Numbered from the stretch's first letter, positions 2,347-14,026 are shown. The stretch is 64,000 nt of DNA from Gemmatimonadota bacterium (GCA_002712305.1 PATE01000063.1:44019-108018); one strand, 5' to 3'. A program made the numbers and translations. The notes: generated by a model not told the origin, from the sequence alone.

Positions 2347-4110
2347 ATGACCCCTTCTTCTCAAGATCCCACGACCGACGCCGGTGCGCCCGAACCGGGT
2401 CGCCGACGCCGACGTCGCCGGACCGATGACGCCAAGAACGCCCCCCCGGCCAAGCGGGGCGAGACCCCCAACGGTCGTTCTCGAGGAAGTTCCGGCGGTG
2501 GAGGACTCATCCCTGCATCCTGGGGATTGACGCCGACTTTCCGTGTCCTGCTCTTCCTTGGCGCCATCGTCGCCGTCATGTCCTTCCTGCTGTACAACGA
2601 GTATCTGATTCGCGAGGTGAGTGAGCAGGAGCGTTTTCGTGCCGAGCTCTATGCCAATCTGTATGGATTGGCTGTCTCGGAGGCACTTCCACCAGAATAC
2701 TCGGCACTGATCGCCGATCGCATCCTCATCAACCCGACGATCGATCTGCCCCTGATCGTCACCAACTATCGTGGCGAGATCATTCTGGAAAAAGGGACTG
2801 GTTTGCTCGCGGGGGACGAGCACCCCGAGACACGACGCAAATTAGAAGAGTTGATGGACAGGATGGATGCGGTCAACGAGCCAGTGAAGGCCCACTGGAC
2901 CACGCAGGCTCGAGGGCGCGTCTATATCGATGGGACACACGTAATCGTAACTGATCCCACCCATTATCCCGTCGCCTGGGCAGGTGAAGATCTTCCCGCT
3001 TTGGTCGAGGAAGGGGATCCGGCACCAATTCAAGTGGCCAATACCCTGCAAGAGATGATGGAGGCCGGTGTGCAACCGAAAGACTTCACGGCCCAGGCCT
3101 CCAACACCTGTTATCTCGCCCAATCCGGCGACGAATTCATCATCATCGAGATGGGGAACGCCTCTCCCCTTGTCTGGGGCGGAGATCAACTGCCCGCTCC
3201 AACCGACACGACTGCCTACAGCCTGGTGCGGTCCAGCTACGACGCGCTAGCCGCCGAGCACGCCCCTGTGGCATTTCAACTCCGCACGGAACACTTCATC
3301 CACTTTGGTGATACGGAACTATTCAACAGGATCTCTCTGGCACCGGTCGTAACCCTCGGGGTGCTGTGCCTGTTCGGGCTGATCGGATATGTCGGATTCC
3401 GCAACATGCGTCGCAGCGAGCAACGTTCGATCTGGGTGGGCATGGCAAAAGAGACGGCCCACCAACTCGGCACGCCGCTCTCTTCTCTGTCCGGCTGGCT
3501 AGAGCTGATGCAGCAGCGACTCGAAGATCTGCAGCAACGGGGAGACAAGCGTGAAGCCGAGGCGGTAGCGAGTATCGCCACCGAGATGCAACGCGACATG
3601 GGCCGACTCAATCAGATCGCCTCCAGATTCAGTCAGATCGGCTCGGTGCCCGAACTCCAGTCAGGGGATCTCGGGGAAGTGGTCACCGATTCGTTGAACT
3701 ACTTCCGGGGAAGGGGATCCCAGTTCGGGCGTCATACCTTTGAGGCGGATGTGCCGCCTCTGCCGAAGATCCCCCTGAACGCCGAGTTGATGGGATGGGT
3801 TTTCGAGAATCTGTTCAAGAATGCCATCGACGCGATGATCGGACAGGACGGCCAGATCCGTGTTCTTGCCCGCCTTGACGAGGAGCGTGACGAAGTTGTC
3901 GTCGTCGTCGAGGACAATGGGTGCGGCATCAAGGCTGAACACCTACCTCGAGTCTTCGAACCCGGTTTCAGCACGAAGAAGAGAGGCTGGGGCCTCGGAC
4001 TGGCTTTCGTCAAACGAATCATCGAGGAGTATCACAGCGGTCGCATCCAGGTGATGCAGAGCGAACGTGGGCAGGGGACGACTTTCGAGATCTCGCTGCC
4101 TACGAGTTGA
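2347..4110 (+). CDS. Membrane sensor histidine kinase (PorY-like)
   Basis: Autophosphorylating sensor kinase of the inner membrane. In order: a basic cytoplasmic N-terminus rich in Arg (about 18-60), a transmembrane helix (about 58-82), a periplasmic sensor region of roughly 245 residues, a second transmembrane helix (about 329-352), and a HisKA dimerisation helix with the H-box ETAHQLGTPLSSL (phospho-accepting His372). The ATPase follows, with N-box ENLFKNAIDAM, G1 DNGCGI and GWGLGLAFVKRI. No recognisable PAS or HAMP domain. The next gene is a PorX-type regulator, so this is very probably its cognate kinase, as PorY is for PorX in Bacteroidota. That pairing is inferred from adjacency; in P. 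gingivalis porX and porY are unlinked. The periplasmic domain is unassigned. Confidence 0.88.
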   Translation: MTPSSQDPTTDAGAPEPGRRRRRRRTDDAKNAPPAKRGETPNGRSRGSSGGGGLIPASWGLTPTFRVLLFLGAIVAVMSFLLYNEYLIREVSEQERFRAELYANLYGLAVSEALPPEYSALIADRILINPTIDLPLIVTNYRGEIILEKGTGLLAGDEHPETRRKLEELMDRMDAVNEPVKAHWTTQARGRVYIDGTHVIVTDPTHYPVAWAGEDLPALVEEGDPAPIQVANTLQEMMEAGVQPKDFTAQASNTCYLAQSGDEFIIIEMGNASPLVWGGDQLPAPTDTTAYSLVRSSYDALAAEHAPVAFQLRTEHFIHFGDTELFNRISLAPVVTLGVLCLFGLIGYVGFRNMRRSEQRSIWVGMAKETAHQLGTPLSSLSGWLELMQQRLEDLQQRGDKREAEAVASIATEMQRDMGRLNQIASRFSQIGSVPELQSGDLGEVVTDSLNYFRGRGSQFGRHTFEADVPPLPKIPLNAELMGWVFENLFKNAIDAMIGQDGQIRVLARLDEERDEVVVVVEDNGCGIKAEHLPRVFEPGFSTKKRGWGLGLAFVKRIIEEYHSGRIQVMQSERGQGTTFEISLPTS

Positions 4111-4176
4111 CCTTTCGACCAACACGGAGGGCCGCCCCGGCGAGCGACACAGTGGGCCCCCTTACAGGAGACGCAG

Positions 4177-5745
4177 TTGGAAACACCCCGCCATAAGGTT
4201 CTTTGGGCAGATGACGAGATCGACCTGCTTCGTTCCCACCACATGTATCTCAACGAGCGTGGCTACGAGGTCACGCCAGTCACCAACGGCGAAGACGCTC
4301 TGGAGATGTTTGCCAAGGAGCGCTTCGATCTGGTACTGCTCGATGAGATGATGCCGGGTCTCGATGGCCTTTCCACCCTGGAGCAGCTGAAGCACCGGGA
4401 TCCGAATGTGCCCGTCATCATGATCACCAAGAACGAAGAAGAACACTTGATGGACGAGGCCATCGGTCGCCGCATCGATGACTACCTCACCAAACCGGTC
4501 AACCCGAGCCAGATCTTCATGGCATGCAAGAAGATTCTCGATGCTCGCCAGATCCGGCAGAGCCAGGCGGGTCAGACGTACGTCACCCGGGCCCAGCAGA
4601 TCCGTGAATGGCTCTCAGGTGAGATCACATGGCGCACGTGGATCGACGTGCATCGCATGTTGTGCGAATGGGATATCGAGGTGAGCCGCATCGGCGATGG
4701 CAGCCTGCAGCAGATGATCGAAGACCAACGCCGAGAGTGCAATCATGAGTTCGCCCGCTTCGTCGAGACTAACTATCCCGGATGGGTGAAGGACGAGAAC
4801 GACTCGCCGCCTCTCTCGGTCGATGTGGTTCCCGAGGCCCTGGCCCCGCAATTGGAGACGGGGGTGCAGACGTTCTTCGTCGTGATCGACTGCCTTCGTC
4901 TCGATCATTGGATGATCCTGGAGCCGAAGATCTCCGAGTTTTTCAACGTCAAACGAGACTATCACTACTCTGTGTTGCCCACAGCCACACCGTACTCGCG
5001 CAATGCCTTATTTTCAGGCTTGTTTCCCTTGGAGATCGCCGCCAAATACCGAGAGTTGTGGTCGCCAGCGGTGGGCAAAGACGACGAGACCAGTCTGAAT
5101 CGCCACGAGCATCAATTCCTTGACGATCAGATCAAGGACATGGGCATCGATCTGAAGGGCGAGTCGAGATACGTGAAGGTCATCGACCCGGAGGAGGGTC
5201 GATCTCTGGCGAGGAAGGCAGACAGCATGGCGGAGATCCCCCTCGTGGCGGTGGTGTACAACTTCCTGGATATGCTCGTCCACGGCCGATCGCACTCTGC
5301 ACTCCTGAAGGAAATCGCCCCCGATGAACGGGGGTTCCGCTCACTCGTTCTGTCCTGGTTCGAAAACTCTTCTCTTTTCGAGTTGCTGAAGAAACTGGCT
5401 CGTTCGGGGTCTCGCGTGGTCATCACCACCGACCACGGCGCGGTGCGGGCTCGACAGGCAACGCTGGTCCATGGTGATCGGCAGACCTCGACCAGTCTCC
5501 GGTACAAACATGGCCGGAACCTCCGCTGCGAAGAAAAGGACGCTCTACGCATCGACGACCCCGAGAAATACGGTTTGCCTCCCTCAGGTCTCGGTGCCAA
5601 CTACATCATCGCCAGGGAAGACTATTTCTTCGTGTACCCGACGAAGTTCAATGAATACTCCAGACAGTATCGGGATAGTTTCCAGCACGGTGGTATCTCT
5701 CTGGAGGAGATGATCCTCCCCGTGGCAACCCTCATACCGCGATGA
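4177..5745 (+). CDS. porX: PorX-like response regulator with PglZ phosphodiesterase domain
   Basis: Two-domain cytoplasmic regulator. Residues 1-125 are a CheY-like receiver with acidic pocket D12/D13, phospho-acceptor D56 (LLDEMMPG), T84 and K106 (YLTKPV). A helical linker (about 130-215) joins an alkaline-phosphatase-fold PglZ domain with VVIDCLRLDHW, the nucleophile region TATPYSRNALFSGLFP, the metal motif TTDHGA and the C-terminal QHGGISLEEMILP. This is the architecture of PorX, which in Porphyromonas controls type IX secretion and whose PglZ domain is a metal-dependent phosphodiesterase on oligonucleotides. The start is TTG, supported by AGGAG six bases upstream. It follows a kinase by 66 bp and overlaps tsaE by four bases. 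The family call is strong; a type IX secretion role here is inference. Confidence 0.92.
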   Translation: METPRHKVLWADDEIDLLRSHHMYLNERGYEVTPVTNGEDALEMFAKERFDLVLLDEMMPGLDGLSTLEQLKHRDPNVPVIMITKNEEEHLMDEAIGRRIDDYLTKPVNPSQIFMACKKILDARQIRQSQAGQTYVTRAQQIREWLSGEITWRTWIDVHRMLCEWDIEVSRIGDGSLQQMIEDQRRECNHEFARFVETNYPGWVKDENDSPPLSVDVVPEALAPQLETGVQTFFVVIDCLRLDHWMILEPKISEFFNVKRDYHYSVLPTATPYSRNALFSGLFPLEIAAKYRELWSPAVGKDDETSLNRHEHQFLDDQIKDMGIDLKGESRYVKVIDPEEGRSLARKADSMAEIPLVAVVYNFLDMLVHGRSHSALLKEIAPDERGFRSLVLSWFENSSLFELLKKLARSGSRVVITTDHGAVRARQATLVHGDRQTSTSLRYKHGRNLRCEEKDALRIDDPEKYGLPPSGLGANYIIAREDYFFVYPTKFNEYSRQYRDSFQHGGISLEEMILPVATLIPR

Positions 5746-6248
5746 ATACGCGCACGGTTCCGTTCCAGCGCGAGGTCACCTCGAGCCCTGAACAGACCCA
5801 GGCCCTTGGCGCTGCTCTTGCGACGCATCTGCACCCCGGAGACCTGATCGCGCTGGAAGGAGATCTTGGGAGTGGCAAGACCTGTCTGATTCAGGGACTC
5901 TGCCGGGCGCTGGGGGTGACATCACGTGTGAACAGTCCGACCTTCGTACTGATCAACGAATACGATGGCCGCCGACCAGGAGGTGAGCAGTTGCTGATCA
6001 GACACTTTGATCTGTATCGCCTCAGTGGGTCTGAGGAGCTGGAGGAGATCGGCGTGCGTGAATTCTTTCACGATCCGGAGTCGCTCTGTTTAGTAGAATG
6101 GGCAGACCGCGTGCCCGATCTGCTGCCGGCCAAGTACTGGTCCATCGAAATGTCTCATCTGGAGGATCCAGCGGATCGGCAGGTCTGCTGTCGCTGGGTC
6201 ATGGCACCGAGTGCCGCAATGGCGACTGCGAGAGGATCCGAGGCGTGA
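5742..6248 (+). CDS. tsaE: tRNA threonylcarbamoyladenosine biosynthesis ATPase TsaE
   Basis: ATPase partner of TsaB-TsaD in making t6A at position 37 of ANN-decoding tRNAs. The P-loop GDLGSGKT is at residues 40-47, followed by the family motifs NSPTFVLINEY, HFDLYRL, EELEEIG and LVEWADR. The length (168 aa) is normal. The start ATG overlaps the PorX stop (ATGA) and its stop overlaps the next gene (GTGA), so translation is probably coupled. tsaB and tsaD are not in the window. PorX-tsaE adjacency is, from memory, also common in Bacteroidota. Confidence 0.95.
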   Translation: MNTRTVPFQREVTSSPEQTQALGAALATHLHPGDLIALEGDLGSGKTCLIQGLCRALGVTSRVNSPTFVLINEYDGRRPGGEQLLIRHFDLYRLSGSEELEEIGVREFFHDPESLCLVEWADRVPDLLPAKYWSIEMSHLEDPADRQVCCRWVMAPSAAMATARGSEA

Positions 6249-7033
6249 GCGAAATTCGAGGTGGTTTCCAGGCCCTTGTGCAGTGGGCGATCGTGGCGAT
6301 GGTCGTCACCTTCATTCCCATCGCCTCACAGGCTCAGGATCCCGTGGAGTTGATTCGGCTCATCGACAACCCCACGGCCGGTCTGGTAGACAAGGGGCGT
6401 TTCGCCGCCGATTTCCGACTGTTTCCACAGGGTGGGCTTCAAGGCCAGTTGACGGCAGGGATTATGCGTCGGCTCGCGATCGGTCTGTCCTTCGGGGGCG
6501 AAGGGATCATCGGCGATGGAAACGTCGACTGGTACCCTCGTGTCGAAGTGGCGGCGCGTTATCGGGTTATCGAGGAAAGCGAAGCCCTGCCGGCCTTCAC
6601 GTTGGGCTACGAAACCCAAGGATACGGGCGATACGTGGGCGAGCGGTATCAGGTGAAATCGAAAGGGTTCTTTCTCGCCATCAGCAAGAACTATGTGTCG
6701 GGATTTGGTCAGTTTGGAGTTCATGCCGGTGCCAATCGCAGTCGCGAAGACGAGGATGACGACGGCCTCAACGGATGGGTTGGCCTCGACAAGTCGATCA
6801 ACGAGGAACTGATCGTGGCGGGCGAATACGACTTCGCCCTCAACGACAATGGTGACGATGCTCTCGGGTCCGGTCGCGGGTATCTCAATCTGGGCGCTTT
6901 CTGGGCCCCCACCGACGGGCTCTATCTCGGTTTCCTGCTCAAGAACGTTTTAGAGAACGGTGATGGGGGTGGGATTGGTCCCGACCCTGAGTTGAGTCGT
7001 GAACTCGTCGTCCGGTACACGGAGAGATTCTGA
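6245..7033 (+). CDS. Exported beta-barrel outer-membrane protein, YjbH-like
   Basis: Unrecognised exported protein of 262 aa. The GTG start overlaps the tsaE stop by four bases. It is followed by a signal peptide (hydrophobic about 9-27, cleavage after SQA near residue 29). The mature part has alternating hydrophobic/polar strands rich in Gly and aromatics (LTAGIMRRLAIGLSFGGEG, FFLAISKNYV, FGQFGVHAGANRS, YLNLGAFWAP, LYLGFLLKNVL) and ends in Phe, as BAM substrates do. The opening DNPTAGLVDKGRFAADFRLF followed by GGLQGQL resembles YjbH/YjbF-type exopolysaccharide-associated barrels, but I cannot name a family securely. It overlaps the next barrel gene (TGATG), so both probably come from one transcript with PorX and TsaE. 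Confidence 0.65.
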   Translation: MSEIRGGFQALVQWAIVAMVVTFIPIASQAQDPVELIRLIDNPTAGLVDKGRFAADFRLFPQGGLQGQLTAGIMRRLAIGLSFGGEGIIGDGNVDWYPRVEVAARYRVIEESEALPAFTLGYETQGYGRYVGERYQVKSKGFFLAISKNYVSGFGQFGVHAGANRSREDEDDDGLNGWVGLDKSINEELIVAGEYDFALNDNGDDALGSGRGYLNLGAFWAPTDGLYLGFLLKNVLENGDGGGIGPDPELSRELVVRYTERF

Positions 7034-8364
7034 TGACGTGCGTACGGGCCTTGATGGCGGTGACGCTAACGATCCTCATCGCCGTGCCCGCCTCGACGCA
7101 GGAAGAACGCGCCGTCGGCAATTTCGCCGGCGTGGGCGTACGATCTATGGCGATGGGGGGTGCCTTCGTCGGGGTGGCCGACGATTTCACGGCCGTTTTC
7201 TGGAACCCGGCTGGGCTGGCACAGATCCAACAGCGTGAAATCTACGTTGGGTTGAATCGCAACGGCTTTGAGAATCAATCGAGCATGGACGGCGCCTCGG
7301 CCACAGCGAATGTGAACAACACTCACTTTGGTTCTCTTGGCGCAGTCTTCCCCTGGCCTGTCGCGCGTGGCAGTTTCGTGATTGCTGCCGGTATCAATCG
7401 TGTTAGCGATCTGGACTGGGGTCTGGAGAGCAGCGGACACCTCGACAGTCTCCACATCGAAGACCGCTTCCGACACGAAGGGAAACTCACTACAACGACT
7501 CTCGCAGCGGCGGTCGATGTGAGCCCATCGGTTTCTCTGGGACTGGCCGTGAACATCGTTTCCGGTGAAGACGAATCAAGCAACGAGTTTATTTCTCTCG
7601 ACACCGAGGACCACTTCTTTGAGAGGCGGTTCGTGGACAGAGAGGAATTCGTCGACGACTACGAACGGGCCTTCACCGCCACCCTCGGTGCCATGGTGCG
7701 ATCCGAGAGGGTTGATCCCCGTCTCCGTTTCGGTCTGGCTGTGACCACTGGGGCGACGCACAAGATTTCCTACGACTTTCTCGCTCCACCAGACACGGCC
7801 TTTAGCATCGTCGAATTCGACGATGGCAGGGTGTTCACGGCGCCTGGTGTCGAATTCAGCGATCGGTATAAGCTGTCCCTGCCCCTGTCTCTCGCCATTG
7901 GCGGCTCCTATCGCCCGCTTCCACAGCTTCTGCTGGCGGCGGGTCTGCACTCGACGGAGTGGTCGCAGACTGAGTACGATGGCAGTGACGCCGCCCAACT
8001 TCGGACGAACGCCGACTTTGAGCGTCAATACGACGACATCGTCCGCTGGCACCTGGGGGCCGAATACCAGCTTCCGAACATGGGTGTCGATCTGAGGGTT
8101 GGGGCGTATGCCGACCCCATTCCCTTCGTGGGGCCCCGCGACCCTGAACGGGCGGACGACCCCGAGACGAATCCTCCCGTAGTCTCCATCCAGGATCGCA
8201 GATTCTTGACGGCCGGTGCCGGTTTCTTCCTCGAAGAAACGGTGCGTTGCGATATCACGATGAGTCGGGGCAACTACGAACAGGTCGAAGGGGAGGGCGC
8301 CTCCAGGCTTCGGGAGGAAGCCACCCTGACTCGCTGGTCTCTGGGCGTCTCCTACCGATTCTGA
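7033..8364 (+). CDS. PorV/PorQ/FadL-like outer-membrane beta-barrel protein
   Basis: Outer-membrane barrel of 443 aa. A signal peptide (about 1-23, ending PASTQ) precedes the family's N-terminal signature GVGVRSMAMGGAFVGVADD followed by FWNPAGLAQIQ. That signature is shared by the PorV/PorQ and OMPP1/FadL/TodX families. The rest is amphipathic strands, ending in SLGVSYRF with terminal Phe. In Bacteroidota PorV is the shuttle of type IX secretion, while FadL-type barrels import hydrophobic molecules; the sequence alone does not separate them. Lying in the same overlapping gene string as a PorX-type regulator makes the PorV reading attractive but unproven. The start ATG overlaps the previous stop. 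Confidence 0.75.
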   Translation: MTCVRALMAVTLTILIAVPASTQEERAVGNFAGVGVRSMAMGGAFVGVADDFTAVFWNPAGLAQIQQREIYVGLNRNGFENQSSMDGASATANVNNTHFGSLGAVFPWPVARGSFVIAAGINRVSDLDWGLESSGHLDSLHIEDRFRHEGKLTTTTLAAAVDVSPSVSLGLAVNIVSGEDESSNEFISLDTEDHFFERRFVDREEFVDDYERAFTATLGAMVRSERVDPRLRFGLAVTTGATHKISYDFLAPPDTAFSIVEFDDGRVFTAPGVEFSDRYKLSLPLSLAIGGSYRPLPQLLLAAGLHSTEWSQTEYDGSDAAQLRTNADFERQYDDIVRWHLGAEYQLPNMGVDLRVGAYADPIPFVGPRDPERADDPETNPPVVSIQDRRFLTAGAGFFLEETVRCDITMSRGNYEQVEGEGASRLREEATLTRWSLGVSYRF

Positions 8365-8416: not shown

Positions 8417-8474
8417 GAAAGCAGGTGCCAGCTTTGAAGCTCGGTTATCGAGAGAAAGACCAGAGGAGGGAGCC

Positions 8475-9188
8475 ATGATCCGCCGACCCATTGTCGCCTG
8501 GATCGCCACCGCCATCAGCGCGCTGGCGCTGAGTGGCTGTTACACGGTGCTCCAAGCGCCCGGCTTCGCGACCCGACCATCCGAACCGGAATCACAGGCC
8601 TACACATGGGATGGCGAAGGCGCCACTGCCAGTCCCACTGTGGGCGATTTCGACAACTCGAGCCAGTATCCCTATGGATACGGTCCGACACGTTCGGCCG
8701 GGGTTCCGGTTTTCGGCTATGACACCCTCTACGGTCTCTATGGATATGGATCCCCCTACGCCTATGGCCGCTATGGAGGCCTCTATTCGGGCGGTTACGG
8801 ATATGGATACAGTGCGGGTCCTCATGGATACGGCTACGACCCCTATTACTACGGCTCGCGCGGTTCGTACATCCCGCCCGGTTACGAACTGATCACGACG
8901 GACGCACTGCAGGCGTTGCGCAATCAGCAGCAGGGAATCGGGACTGTCAGCGATCCAATCAGCGACGCCGAACGGGCGACCCAAGTCCGTCGCCAACAGC
9001 GCGATGCGGAACGGGCCTGGACACAGAGGACCGAACCCGAGCGTCGATCGACCACCGCGGTCCGGACACCACGTCCGGCACCTTCCAGTGGTCGTGTGAC
9101 GTCATCCTCGTCTTCTTCCTCTTCATCGTCGTCGTCTTCCGAGAGCAGCGGTAGTTCCGCAGCGAAGCGGCGTAAGAAGAAGCGGTGA
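8475..9188 (+). CDS. Tyr/Gly-rich lipoprotein with poly-Ser and basic tail
   Basis: Unknown 237-aa lipoprotein. The start is fixed by a strong AGAGGAGG seven or so bases before the ATG. The signal peptide ends in the lipobox LALSGC (acylated Cys22). Residues about 60-140 are low-complexity Tyr/Gly/Pro (repeats of YGYG, YGGLYSGGYGYGYS). A short structured part follows (about 145-190, IPPGYELITTDALQALRNQQQ), then a basic/Arg-rich segment, a run of 13 serines encoded by mixed TCN codons, and a terminal KRRKKKR. The composition suggests an extended surface or periplasmic protein whose basic tail could bind peptidoglycan, LPS or nucleic acid. That is inference; I recognise no family. Confidence 0.7.
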   Translation: MIRRPIVAWIATAISALALSGCYTVLQAPGFATRPSEPESQAYTWDGEGATASPTVGDFDNSSQYPYGYGPTRSAGVPVFGYDTLYGLYGYGSPYAYGRYGGLYSGGYGYGYSAGPHGYGYDPYYYGSRGSYIPPGYELITTDALQALRNQQQGIGTVSDPISDAERATQVRRQQRDAERAWTQRTEPERRSTTAVRTPRPAPSSGRVTSSSSSSSSSSSSSESSGSSAAKRRKKKR

Positions 9189-9306: not shown

Positions 9307-10008
9307 TCAGTCTCCGCTGATATCGAATTGACGCAATTGGCGACTCGGAGGGGGTGACACGCGTCTGAGGAAATCTCGCATCGGGCCTGCCAGTGCCGTG
9401 AGCAGCTGTTGCTCGGTTCGATCCCCACCACCGACCACATCCTGCTGGACTCGCTCCCAGCTGCTTCGTTTCCCACGTTGTGTCCAGCGATCACCCGTCT
9501 CGAGATTGATTAGCGTCAGCTCAAGCTCGACCGTCAGATTGACGCCAGGCGCATGCACGGCGCTGCCGTGGGGTCCGGGTGAGACCGGGGTCATGTGCGC
9601 TTCCATCCCCCGTAGGGACACGTGCACGAGCGCGTCAAGTTCCAACTCCTGCTGCATCTGAAGCAGGACGCTGTCGCTGAAGACATGGGCTGAATCGAGG
9701 ACCACGTCCTTGAAGTGCCAGCGAATCTCGTCCTGACTCACGACTCGACGATGGGGAAGGTTGCTCAGGCCTCGAGCTGTGGCGTCGCTCAGCCGCCCCA
9801 TGATGCGTTCGATGTCGACACTTCGCTGTGGTTCGATATTGGTCTCGGAGACCACACCCAGAACCGTCACATTCTGCAGCAGGGGCAGCACTTCAGCATC
9901 GGGCTCTGAGGGGGCACGGAACTCGACGGGAACCGTATCCCGTCCGGGAACGCGACCCGCACATGCAGCCAATCCGAGGGCCAACACAGCAATCAGACAT
10001 CTGCGCAT
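9307..10008 (-). CDS. Small lipoprotein of unknown function
   Basis: 233-aa lipoprotein with signal LIAVLALGLAAC (lipobox LAAC, Cys16). The mature region has alternating alpha/beta character: NVTVLGVVSE, a helix ERIMGRLSDATARGL, RRVVSQDEI, then DALVHVSLRGME and NLTVELELTLINLETGDRWTQ. This layout (regulator helix, query of redox/time-like strands ending in LINLETG..) is reminiscent of periplasmic lipoproteins that assess outer-membrane assembly (LpoB/CsgG-like fold), but I cannot assign it. Its ATG overlaps the stop of the large protease-barrel gene (TGATG), so it is the third cistron of that operon and probably works with it at the outer membrane. Confidence 0.7.
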   Translation of the reverse strand: MRRCLIAVLALGLAACAGRVPGRDTVPVEFRAPSEPDAEVLPLLQNVTVLGVVSETNIEPQRSVDIERIMGRLSDATARGLSNLPHRRVVSQDEIRWHFKDVVLDSAHVFSDSVLLQMQQELELDALVHVSLRGMEAHMTPVSPGPHGSAVHAPGVNLTVELELTLINLETGDRWTQRGKRSSWERVQQDVVGGGDRTEQQLLTALAGPMRDFLRRVSPPPSRQLRQFDISGD

Positions 10009-13000
10009 CAGAACGCCTTACCGAAGCTGAAGTGCATACGCCAGTCGGAGTATTCGCGAAAGTCCGTTCGTCGTGCGAATTCGAAGTTGAGCGGCGCGAG
10101 GAAGTAGACGAGGAAGCTGAAACCCATGCCGCCCTGCAGTCGGGCTTCGTCGGTGGCTGGATTGTAGGGCACGAGCGGATCCTGCAAAGGCCACAGATCC
10201 AGATCCTGTCCCTTGTTCCAGGCACTGCCGATGTCGACGAAGAAAGCTCCATCCACAGCGGGAATGGCGAAGGTTCCCGGCCATCCAAAGGTGATGTTCC
10301 GAATAAAGGGAACCCGCACCTCCGAGTTCAGCAACACAACGCGGCTGCCAGTCAACTCAGAGAAGGAATATCCCCGGAGCGGACCCAGATTGAGATTGTA
10401 CCCCGGGTAGAAGGGGAGGAACCACGCCGGACCGCCGAGATTGTAGGCGAGTCCGTCACGTCCGAGAGAGCCCATTCCTACGCCGCGGATTCCCAGCACC
10501 GACCACCGACCCAGGCGGAAATAGTGACGGTAATCGGCCTCCAGGTGCGTAAATGAGCGATCGCCTTCGACCAACTCGAAGGCTCGTCCCACCGACACAT
10601 AGTAACGGCGGCCAGCGGTAGGACCGAGCAGCCCGTTGTTGAGTGAATCGTGCACGTAGGCGGTCTTGACCAGATGTGTACCAAAGGCTTCAACCGGCTC
10701 GGTCACGGGCCACGCGATTTCGCGAACTTCATCGACAAAGGAGTAGGAAAGCTCCATTCGACGGAAGACATCGAGGGGATAACTGATGTCGGCCAGCAGG
10801 CCACTCTGTCGAGACCGGATCAGACCCTGTGTGAGATTTGTGCTGCCCACCGGGTAATACCCCCCGATCGGCCCGCGTCCCTGAGTGTCATTGAAGTACT
10901 GATTCCAGTTGAAGATCGTCGCACCGTAGGTCGCTCTCCGGCTGAAGTACGCATAACTGACGGCGAAGGTGAAGTCATTGCTGATCTCCTGTGAGCCCAC
11001 ATAATCAGTGAACATGCTCGCCGAGTGGTTTCCCAGTAGATCACTCATGCTCAGGTGGGCGATTCCGGAGAGGAATCCAGAGTAGTATCCCATCTGCAGC
11101 GATACACCATCGAACTCCAGCTTCGGTCTGTATCGACGCCGAGGAAGTCCGTCCACATTGTAGGCGTCGTCGAAGAAACTGGAGAGTTCGATCGCCGCCG
11201 GATTACCGTGGTTCACCGTGGGTGGCGTGGCTGATGCAGCTGTCTCGTTGAGATCGGTGCGTGTGTCAGCCAGTTTCACCGCCGTTTGTCCCCGCGCCTT
11301 CTGTGCCAGCAGAGCCACTGCTTCGTCGAGGCCTAACCGAGGCGTTGTCGTCGAGTCCATCTCGGTCGGAGCTGATTCGGTCTCTTCCTCGAACTCGTCG
11401 TCGACGCGAGGCACAGGAGCGACACCACCAGAACGAGCCGCCAGCGTCTCATCCTGGCGTCGGATCTCGGGCCAGGAGGGCATGTCCATCAGGTAGAGTT
11501 CCCGCCGGCCGTGGTAGTATGTACTCATCACCAGCTGCTTGCCGTCGGGCGACAGTCGAGGCGCCATGATGCCACTGACGGTCTGTGTCAGGCGATACTC
11601 CCGATCCTGTTCGAGGTGGTAGACGAACAGATCATTGATGCCCTCCCGTGTCGATACGAAGAGAATCTTGTTGCCTGCGGGGAGCCACTCGGGCCACAAA
11701 TCGTCGGTCGGAGTTGCCACCAGTGTAGAAACGGTATCGTTTTCGAAATTGTAGGCGCGGATATCGAATTGGTGGCCCTGCTTGGCGCTGTAGGCGAGGT
11801 AACGCCCGTCGGGGCTGAAGGAGGGATAGCTGTCGCGCTGTGGCGTACCGGTGATCTGCTGCAACTCACCAGTGAGGGTATCGACGACGTAGATATCGCT
11901 CTGGCCATAGCCTGTTCCGACGAAGGCCAATCTCCCGCTGGTGGGGTCAAAATCGAGACCCTCGATGACTTCCACGCCCTCAAACTGAAAGGCCTTGCCC
12001 AGTTCCTTGTCGTACAGATCCCACAGCAGAATGCGATCAGCGGGTCCGGCCTTGGCGACGAACGCGATCGTGCGACCGTCTGCGCCCCAGGCAACCGTAC
12101 CATCGTTGAAGGTCAGATCGTCATACTGGCGCGTCCGCATTCCACTGCTGACACGCTCGACAAGCTTGCCACTGCTGATGCGGATAATGTCGACATGCTG
12201 CTCGACACCATCGGTGCTGAGGACGGCGAGCATGTCACCGCCTAAAGACCAGTCTGGTGAGGTATACAGCCCAAAGAAATCGTCGGACTCAATGATCCGT
12301 TCAGCGAACTCGGACACGTAGTCACGGGTCTGCAGCAGAGGCCAGTACTTCTTGCGCATGTGTGCTTGCCAGCGCTCATCGAGGGACTCCATATCCATGT
12401 CGATGAGGCGTTCAAGCAAACGGTCCGATCCACTTTGTCGATCCCAAGCACGCAACAACCGGCTCACCTTCTCAGGGCCGAAATTGTCGGCGATATACTC
12501 GATGAGACTGTGGCTCTGCTTGTAGGCGAGGAACGGATTTGGCAGATAGTGCCAGCTGGCATCCATGACCTCGAGTGGAATCAGGCCGTCGGTGAGAACG
12601 GCATCACGCAGGACCATTTCATCGACAGTGTTCATCTCCTGCGTCGAATACTCGGCCATGCCTTCCATAATCCACGTGGGTGGACTGGCAATCGGATTCG
12701 AGATGCGACGCACGGGGCCCCGGTTGACGACATCGTATTGGAAGATGTGCATCAACTCGTGAGTGAGGACGTTGTTGAAATCATCCAGATCCCCATTGAA
12801 GGGGATGACCATCCGGTATCTCAGCGGCTCTGCAAAGCCGGCAACACCGGGGGGAAGGAAGGCCTGGATAATGTTGTTTTGCTGGAACTCGTAGTGCGAC
12901 TTGAAGATGACGATGGGAGGCTTCGTCGACAGCTCGTGACGCATGATCGTGCTGATATGGCCATAGGCATCTTCCAGATAACCCACAGCGCGATCGGCGA

Positions 13001-13202
13001 GATCCTCAAATTCCGGCTCGTAGTGCAGCAGCAGATGCTCACTCTCAACGAAATGCCAATCGAACTCCTTGTACCGGACTTTGTTGCGTCCGAATCCCTG
13101 CCGCAACTGCGAGGAGACGATATCCTGGGCAATCGATGGCAAGGGCAGCATGAGACAGGCCGCAAGCAGCACAAGAATGGGACGCAGTCGGGGAAGCATC
13201 AT
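10008..13202 (-). CDS. Metalloprotease / beta-propeller / Omp85-like barrel fusion
   Basis: A 1064-aa exported protein combining three modules. After a signal peptide (to about residue 26) comes a Peptidase-MA-like gluzincin: LTHELMHIFQYD supplies HExxH (about 148-152) and WIMEGMAEY the third zinc ligand, so the catalytic set looks complete. Residues about 310-580 form a TolB/PD40-type propeller with repeated SPDGRYLAYS-like blades. An acidic, Thr-rich linker (about 585-640) leads to a C-terminal BamA/TamA-type D15 barrel (about 690-1064: GPTAGRRYYVS, NLGPLRGYSFSEL, GMGFSFLVYFLAPLNFEFAR) ending in Phe. I chose ATG 13202, behind GAGAGGA and 20 bp after the TPR gene's stop; an adjacent ATG at 13199 is equally good. 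It may be a barrel-anchored periplasmic protease or self-secreted passenger (inference). Downstream lipoprotein is coupled. Confidence 0.88.
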   Translation of the reverse strand: MMLPRLRPILVLLAACLMLPLPSIAQDIVSSQLRQGFGRNKVRYKEFDWHFVESEHLLLHYEPEFEDLADRAVGYLEDAYGHISTIMRHELSTKPPIVIFKSHYEFQQNNIIQAFLPPGVAGFAEPLRYRMVIPFNGDLDDFNNVLTHELMHIFQYDVVNRGPVRRISNPIASPPTWIMEGMAEYSTQEMNTVDEMVLRDAVLTDGLIPLEVMDASWHYLPNPFLAYKQSHSLIEYIADNFGPEKVSRLLRAWDRQSGSDRLLERLIDMDMESLDERWQAHMRKKYWPLLQTRDYVSEFAERIIESDDFFGLYTSPDWSLGGDMLAVLSTDGVEQHVDIIRISSGKLVERVSSGMRTRQYDDLTFNDGTVAWGADGRTIAFVAKAGPADRILLWDLYDKELGKAFQFEGVEVIEGLDFDPTSGRLAFVGTGYGQSDIYVVDTLTGELQQITGTPQRDSYPSFSPDGRYLAYSAKQGHQFDIRAYNFENDTVSTLVATPTDDLWPEWLPAGNKILFVSTREGINDLFVYHLEQDREYRLTQTVSGIMAPRLSPDGKQLVMSTYYHGRRELYLMDMPSWPEIRRQDETLAARSGGVAPVPRVDDEFEEETESAPTEMDSTTTPRLGLDEAVALLAQKARGQTAVKLADTRTDLNETAASATPPTVNHGNPAAIELSSFFDDAYNVDGLPRRRYRPKLEFDGVSLQMGYYSGFLSGIAHLSMSDLLGNHSASMFTDYVGSQEISNDFTFAVSYAYFSRRATYGATIFNWNQYFNDTQGRGPIGGYYPVGSTNLTQGLIRSRQSGLLADISYPLDVFRRMELSYSFVDEVREIAWPVTEPVEAFGTHLVKTAYVHDSLNNGLLGPTAGRRYYVSVGRAFELVEGDRSFTHLEADYRHYFRLGRWSVLGIRGVGMGSLGRDGLAYNLGGPAWFLPFYPGYNLNLGPLRGYSFSELTGSRVVLLNSEVRVPFIRNITFGWPGTFAIPAVDGAFFVDIGSAWNKGQDLDLWPLQDPLVPYNPATDEARLQGGMGFSFLVYFLAPLNFEFARRTDFREYSDWRMHFSFGKAF

Positions 13203-13222
13203 GCGGTCCTCTCTGTCAGTTC

Positions 13223-14026
13223 TCAATCGTGCACCATGATTCTGAGCAGGTCGTCCGGCTCTTCGTCTTCGCCGTACTCACTACGTCTACGGACGCGATC
13301 CTCTTCCTGAACCCGACTGACCTGTGCCCCGTCGAGTCGACGCAGGTTGCTCTGATAGGCCGTTTTGCCCGGCTGTAGGGCCAGGGCTCGCTCGTAGGAC
13401 AGGCGCGCCTGATCGGACTCGCCAAGGCGTTCGTACAGAATCCCAAGATTATTGTGCAGACTCGCGGCGAGGTTGTCCCGAGCGATGGCCTGTTCCAGGT
13501 GTGTGCGTGCCTCGGCCCACATGTCTCGTTCCAGACACCAGAGGGCATAGGCGTTGACCTGCTCAACCCGCTCGCGATCCTCTCCGCTGCGTTCGGCGTA
13601 AGCATCGCGAAGTAGCTGTCTTTCGTCGTCGCTCAACTCTACGACGGTCGGACGTTCCGGCTCTGCAGAACGTTTGATCGGGCCGATGCCGTAGATCCGG
13701 GGGCCTGCCATGGGAAGCCGCGTTGAGTCTGTGATCGATGCAGAGGCTGCGGTACTCGCCAGTGAATCCGATCTGCTCGAGTCGGCTGAGACCTCGGCCG
13801 TCACGTCCTGTGCCATCTCGGATGTTGCACTGGCCGGCGTCTCGGCCGGTGTCTCAGCCGGTGTCTCAGTCTGGGCATCGACGTCGACGGCGGGCGACAC
13901 GGCCCACCACGGTGGGCTTTGACTCGGACGACGGATGGCTTGCGTACAGCTGGTCCAACCCATGCTCGCCACAACGAAGGCGGCAACACCAAGGCTCAGA
14001 ACTCTTTTATGATCGACGAAGGGCAT
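13223..14026 (-). CDS. TPR-containing exported protein (putative lipoprotein)
   Basis: 267-aa protein. A hydrophobic N-terminus (about 8-24, VLSLGVAAFVVASMGWTSC) ends in a Cys, but Trp at -3 makes a poor lipobox. A low-complexity linker with a triplet ETPAETPAETPA repeat follows, then RIYGIGPIKRS and a basic/acidic helix. The C-terminal TPR pair includes WAEARTHLEQAIARD, ASLHNNLGILYERLG and DQARLSYERALALQPG. ATG at 14026 is preferred, since earlier in-frame codons add no credible signal. It is the first gene of the operon with the protease-barrel fusion and the small lipoprotein, so a scaffold for that machine is likely (inference). Confidence 0.75.
   Translation of the reverse strand: MPFVDHKRVLSLGVAAFVVASMGWTSCTQAIRRPSQSPPWWAVSPAVDVDAQTETPAETPAETPASATSEMAQDVTAEVSADSSRSDSLASTAASASITDSTRLPMAGPRIYGIGPIKRSAEPERPTVVELSDDERQLLRDAYAERSGEDRERVEQVNAYALWCLERDMWAEARTHLEQAIARDNLAASLHNNLGILYERLGESDQARLSYERALALQPGKTAYQSNLRRLDGAQVSRVQEEDRVRRRSEYGEDEEPDDLLRIMVHD

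Follow-up and report, generated by a model that had tools for sequence, protein, structure and literature searches.

A two-component system that very probably governs type IX secretion (T9SS) is encoded by a porY-porX operon in a T9SS-bearing bacterium of the phylum Latescibacterota. We found this operon in a stretch of 64,000 nucleotides (the window), which is part of a 4.77 Mb draft genome (contig 84). The identities of both proteins by sequence, the adjacency of their genes throughout the phylum, the co-occurrence of PorX and PorY in the FCB group, and the presence of both the T9SS translocon and its cargo directly support this assignment. Phosphotransfer, dimerization and the control of T9SS would apply to this phylum by analogy with the work on P. 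gingivalis and F. johnsoniae.

The genome belongs to the Latescibacterota and not to the Bacteroidota, and the named PorX loci of the same set are titled Latescibacteria or Latescibacterota. Our analysis therefore agrees with the earlier note, made from the window alone, in which a non-Bacteroidota, flagellated host had been proposed. A flagellin gene lies near the porYX string, at positions 44-1219, and other loci of the window's family likewise have one upstream. The PorXY circuit, T9SS cargo and the translocon are hereby placed outside the Bacteroidota, the phylum of P. gingivalis. No paper joining Latescibacterota to T9SS was found in the literature searched under 'type IX secretion'.

The porX gene and its neighbours

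The five open reading frames from the kinase gene to the second barrel gene, which had been delimited in the earlier note, were recovered with the same boundaries (Table 1). The spacing described there was likewise confirmed: the kinase gene and porX are separated by a gap of 66 bp, and the downstream genes overlap by 4, 4, and 1 bp, in this order. The start codon of porX is TTG and is preceded by an AGGAG-like site. A divergent DUF2279 gene lies upstream of the kinase gene. At the other end, the small lipoprotein-like gene is the next in the string within the window's family, with homologues at the matching place in 14 loci.

Table 1. Features of the porY-porX gene string, in positions of the window.
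Feature	Position	Strand	Evidence
PorY-orthologous histidine kinase, 587 aa	2347..4110	+	HATPase_c 83 bits; kinase profile A3
PorY periplasmic sensor unit, three in tandem	2743..3333	+	iterated profile; AlphaFold2 model
PorX response regulator: receiver (D56) and PglZ/alkaline-phosphatase-type effector	4177..5745	+	NF052313; PDB PorX
tsaE (t6A ATPase)	5742..6248	+	TIGR00150 111.6 bits; PF02367 135.7 bits
Outer-membrane β-barrel, ~12 strands, no family assigned	6245..7033	+	AlphaFold2 model
FadL/TodX-type barrel	7033..8364	+	PF03349 57.1 bits
Small lipoprotein-like gene, LSGC lipobox	8472..9188	+	open reading frame and lipobox read directly

Judged by its sequence, the regulator is a genuine PorX. 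It scored 667.9 bits against the NF052313 equivalog model, which has a curated cut-off of 300, and it matched the solved PorX proteins in the PDB from end to end with E values of 1e-133 to 1e-135. The zinc-binding and catalytic residues of F. johnsoniae PorX have been named together with its phosphorylation site (PMC11320123). In an alignment of 11 Latescibacterota PorX proteins, D56 and the counterparts of this set (D238, T271, D365, H369, D419, H420, and H504) are invariant. The receiver with D56 and the intact PglZ motifs, from which a PorX-like regulator had been proposed, thus belong to an orthologue that shares all catalytic residues with PorX of P. gingivalis, and it combines a receiver with a predicted zinc phosphodiesterase effector, like the F. 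johnsoniae protein (PDB 8ted, 8p6f), the residues of which are conserved. In the phylum, 59 of 64 genomes contain a PorX match over the cut-off; what scored lower in the others was for the most part a receiver domain or a fragment.

The linkage of tsaE was rejected as a special feature of this string, since the porX-tsaE adjacency is FCB-wide: of the 78 named FCB loci, 60 have tsaE after porX at a distance of at most 300 bp. The gene is a neighbour throughout this group and is probably simply co-transcribed.

The linkage of the two barrel genes to the string is narrower. For the protein encoded at 6245, no Pfam or NCBIfam match was obtained, and the AlphaFold2 model of the barrel has a mean pLDDT of 81. 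Among solved structures, the amyloid secretion barrel FapF was the best match (Z 17.5, 13-14% identity), with which it has only the 12-strand barrel fold in common; other barrels scored nearly as high, and the protein is therefore assigned to a fold only. In the class, 27 loci have this gene after tsaE, and in another family (L046) the two lie apart. The barrel encoded at 7033, for which linkage to the string is confined to 16 loci of the window's family, exceeded the cut-off of 29.7 bits for PF03349 (FadL) and in this respect resembles the FadL/TodX transporters. It is also weakly similar to the PorV-family and BamG models, in both cases under the cut-off (46.5 versus 90, with 32 bits in the genome search, and 60.8 versus 250, respectively), and the PorV equivalog is absent among its NCBIfam matches. 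PorV as the identity of this protein, a candidate of the earlier note, was therefore rejected in favour of a FadL-like barrel, an outcome that the earlier note had listed among those speaking against its reading.

It is unlikely that the five genes form a dedicated circuit, in which PorXY would control the two co-encoded barrels or receive feedback from them. The overlapping genes do suggest a single transcript, and the positions of the first barrel in the class and of the second barrel and the lipoprotein-like gene in the family are kept. But porX-tsaE occurs without barrels across the FCB group, the first barrel has no match to a T9SS family and can be located away from tsaE, as in L046, and the second is FadL-like instead of PorV. 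Two barrels are indeed encoded in the string, one FadL-like and one recognized from its model, but linked only at the level of family or class. Either one would at most be a candidate target of PorXY, and we consider the barrels local passengers or possible outputs.

Further downstream in the window, positions 10008-13226 on the minus strand encode a single protein in which a peptidase MA domain is combined with a TolB-like propeller and an Omp85 barrel.

Type IX secretion in Latescibacterota

The earlier note had called for a search for T9SS core genes and CTD sorting domains. Sov/SprA is encoded in the window's genome (658 bits, cut-off 200) and in 63 of the 64 genomes of the phylum. In addition, the window's genome contains 46 CTD cargo matches over the cut-off, and five of its loci, none of them in the window, passed the PorV-family cut-off. 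From these three components, identified by profile matches, we conclude that a T9SS is present in this genome. Three of the PorV-family genes were inspected and lie beside genes for CTD or T9SS-like proteins. At these places (L240:4285-7858, L241:1715-6209, and L242:3586-6302), the PorV-family genes overlap or abut the CTD-bearing or T9SS-like genes, as though every shuttle came with a cargo of its own.

The PorM/GldM model TIGR03517 gave no match in any of the 64 Latescibacterota genomes, but was also silent in every control genome and is thus uninformative. The genes beside sprA in the window's genome encode ObgE, DprA, ComEA, and a PilM-like protein, and T9SS motor genes are absent from this neighbourhood.

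In another part of the FCB group, porX is tied by position to the T9SS translocon. In six Ignavibacteria-type loci (L093, L100, L101, L107, L108, and L115), sprA/sov is located directly upstream of porX-tsaE, at a distance of 9 to 88 bp; the SprA_N domain was confirmed in two of the six. This arrangement bears on the possibility that PorXY regulates something other than T9SS in Latescibacterota and that the presence of T9SS is incidental. Such a separation would be in line with the failure to detect PorM, albeit with one model that is silent in the controls too. We consider it quite improbable, given that Sov/SprA is found in nearly all genomes of the phylum, that CTD cargo is abundant in the window's genome, and that other lineages have sprA just upstream of porX.

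The kinase and its linkage to porX

The regulation of T9SS by PorX and PorY remains our preferred reading. The predicted phospho-acceptor of the kinase encoded upstream of porX is H372, within the motif AHQLGTPLSS. Orthologues were searched for with a profile (A3) built from the kinases adjoining porX in Latescibacterota and other lineages. In 31 of the 34 named PorX-bearing FCB genomes, A3 detected a single clear full-length orthologue with 306-578 bits, and the next-best kinase reached no more than 134 bits; of the other three genomes, two gave partial matches and one a weak match. Exactly one match was present in 25 of the 26 genomes of the Porphyromonas-genus group. In genome G445, PorX shows 100% identity to the PDB chain that carries P. 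gingivalis numbering, and the sole A3 match is a kinase of 395 aa with the H-box histidine at position 193 and hydrophobic segments at residues 13-37 and 146-176. These features agree with the published PorY (395 aa, transmembrane segments 14-36 and 149-173, H193; PMC5005315). The match to P. gingivalis PorY (PGN_2001) was made via length, histidine position, and transmembrane layout in G445 and not via the PGN_2001 sequence itself. Taken together, profile, score gap, length, histidine position, topology, and sensor domain identify the kinase of the window as the single orthologue of P. gingivalis PorY, with which it shares the H-box. The PorY-like kinase of the earlier note can therefore be named more firmly than had been claimed.

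The distribution of the two proteins is also in agreement with a cognate pair. Among 344 Bacteroidales, 295 genomes encode both PorX and the kinase, 25 neither, 13 only PorX, and 11 only the kinase (Fisher p 3e-20, for counts uncorrected for relatedness, in a table compiled by hand from two result lists over the same genomes). The two discordant classes are as large as would be expected from incomplete genomes.

The gene order found in the window is conserved across the phylum, as a comparison with relatives revealed, and its conservation indicates more than chance. Of the 40 Latescibacterota loci compared, 36 have the kinase gene immediately before porX, and in the remaining four it does not adjoin porX. 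Outside the phylum, adjacency of porY and porX was observed in L088, L092, L113, L116, L118, L122, and L139, but in none of the Bacteroidota loci examined; the pair of the window differs from porX and porY of P. gingivalis, which lie ~1000 genes apart. In a tree of 45 kinase cores, which was quick, unrooted, and with long branches, one branch separates the linked from the unlinked kinases, and none of 500 shuffles gave a value as low.

Two records of this comparison carry unexpected names. L118 is titled Ignavibacterium, yet its kinase groups with the linked kinases of the Zixibacteria type, which may reflect misnaming or a binning error. L083 (PBRM01000100.1) is titled Gemmatimonadetes but, by the identity of its PorX, corresponds to one of the Latescibacterota genomes.

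PorX and PorY have been described as orphans, and it has been questioned by some authors whether PorY is the main kinase. This doubt is based on the observation that in P. gingivalis the deletion of porY is milder than that of porX (PMC8050853), which would leave room for a second PorX input. The abundance of histidine kinases and this milder phenotype would also be compatible with a different envelope kinase placed upstream of porX by chance, with the true PorX kinase encoded elsewhere, but this is very improbable for a single-copy PorY orthologue the gene of which is found next to porX across the phylum and in a clade formed by other lineages. Instead, the phylum-wide adjacency, the single split between linked and unlinked kinases, and the co-occurrence provide independent genomic support for PorX and PorY as an old cognate pair.

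Proposed signalling and the PorY sensor domain

According to the model derived from the known systems, PorY would read a periplasmic or envelope signal through its three tandem sensor units, autophosphorylate at H372, and in turn phosphorylate PorX at D56. In this state, PorX would dimerize and, with its zinc phosphodiesterase effector, act on the expression or activity of T9SS. PorL is the reported partner of PorX, and the PorL/SigP branch is known from P. gingivalis. Latescibacterota might run a T9SS with Sov, PorV-like shuttles, and CTD cargo, but without a recognizable PorLM motor. In that case, the PorXY pair with its three-unit sensor would act on an output other than the PorL/SigP branch, possibly including the barrels, but we regard this idea as unlikely.

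The sensor of the kinase had appeared novel in the earlier note, but turned out to be the ordinary PorY sensor domain in a tandem triplicate. In an alignment of 60 kinases, the periplasmic domain between the two transmembrane helices can be aligned from Latescibacterota to Porphyromonas. An iterated profile detected three units in the window's kinase, at residues 133-198, 199-258, and 265-329, with i-E values of 3e-19, 3e-6, and 3e-13, respectively; the middle one is the weakest and was found only after one round of iteration. In agreement with this, the AlphaFold2 model of the region consists of three successive β-β-α-β-β units (mean pLDDT 82). A Foldseek search with this fold gave no match at E 0.001. 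In a second look, the best match was a periplasmic domain of the LapD type with a Z score of 5.8, which is within the chance level, and no fold was therefore assigned.

Most families have one sensor unit, as does PorY of P. gingivalis, whereas three are present in the window's family. Natural single-unit and triple-unit forms of the PorY sensor can now be compared. Three units are likewise found in PorY of three loci (L046, L053, and L074) from another Latescibacterota family.
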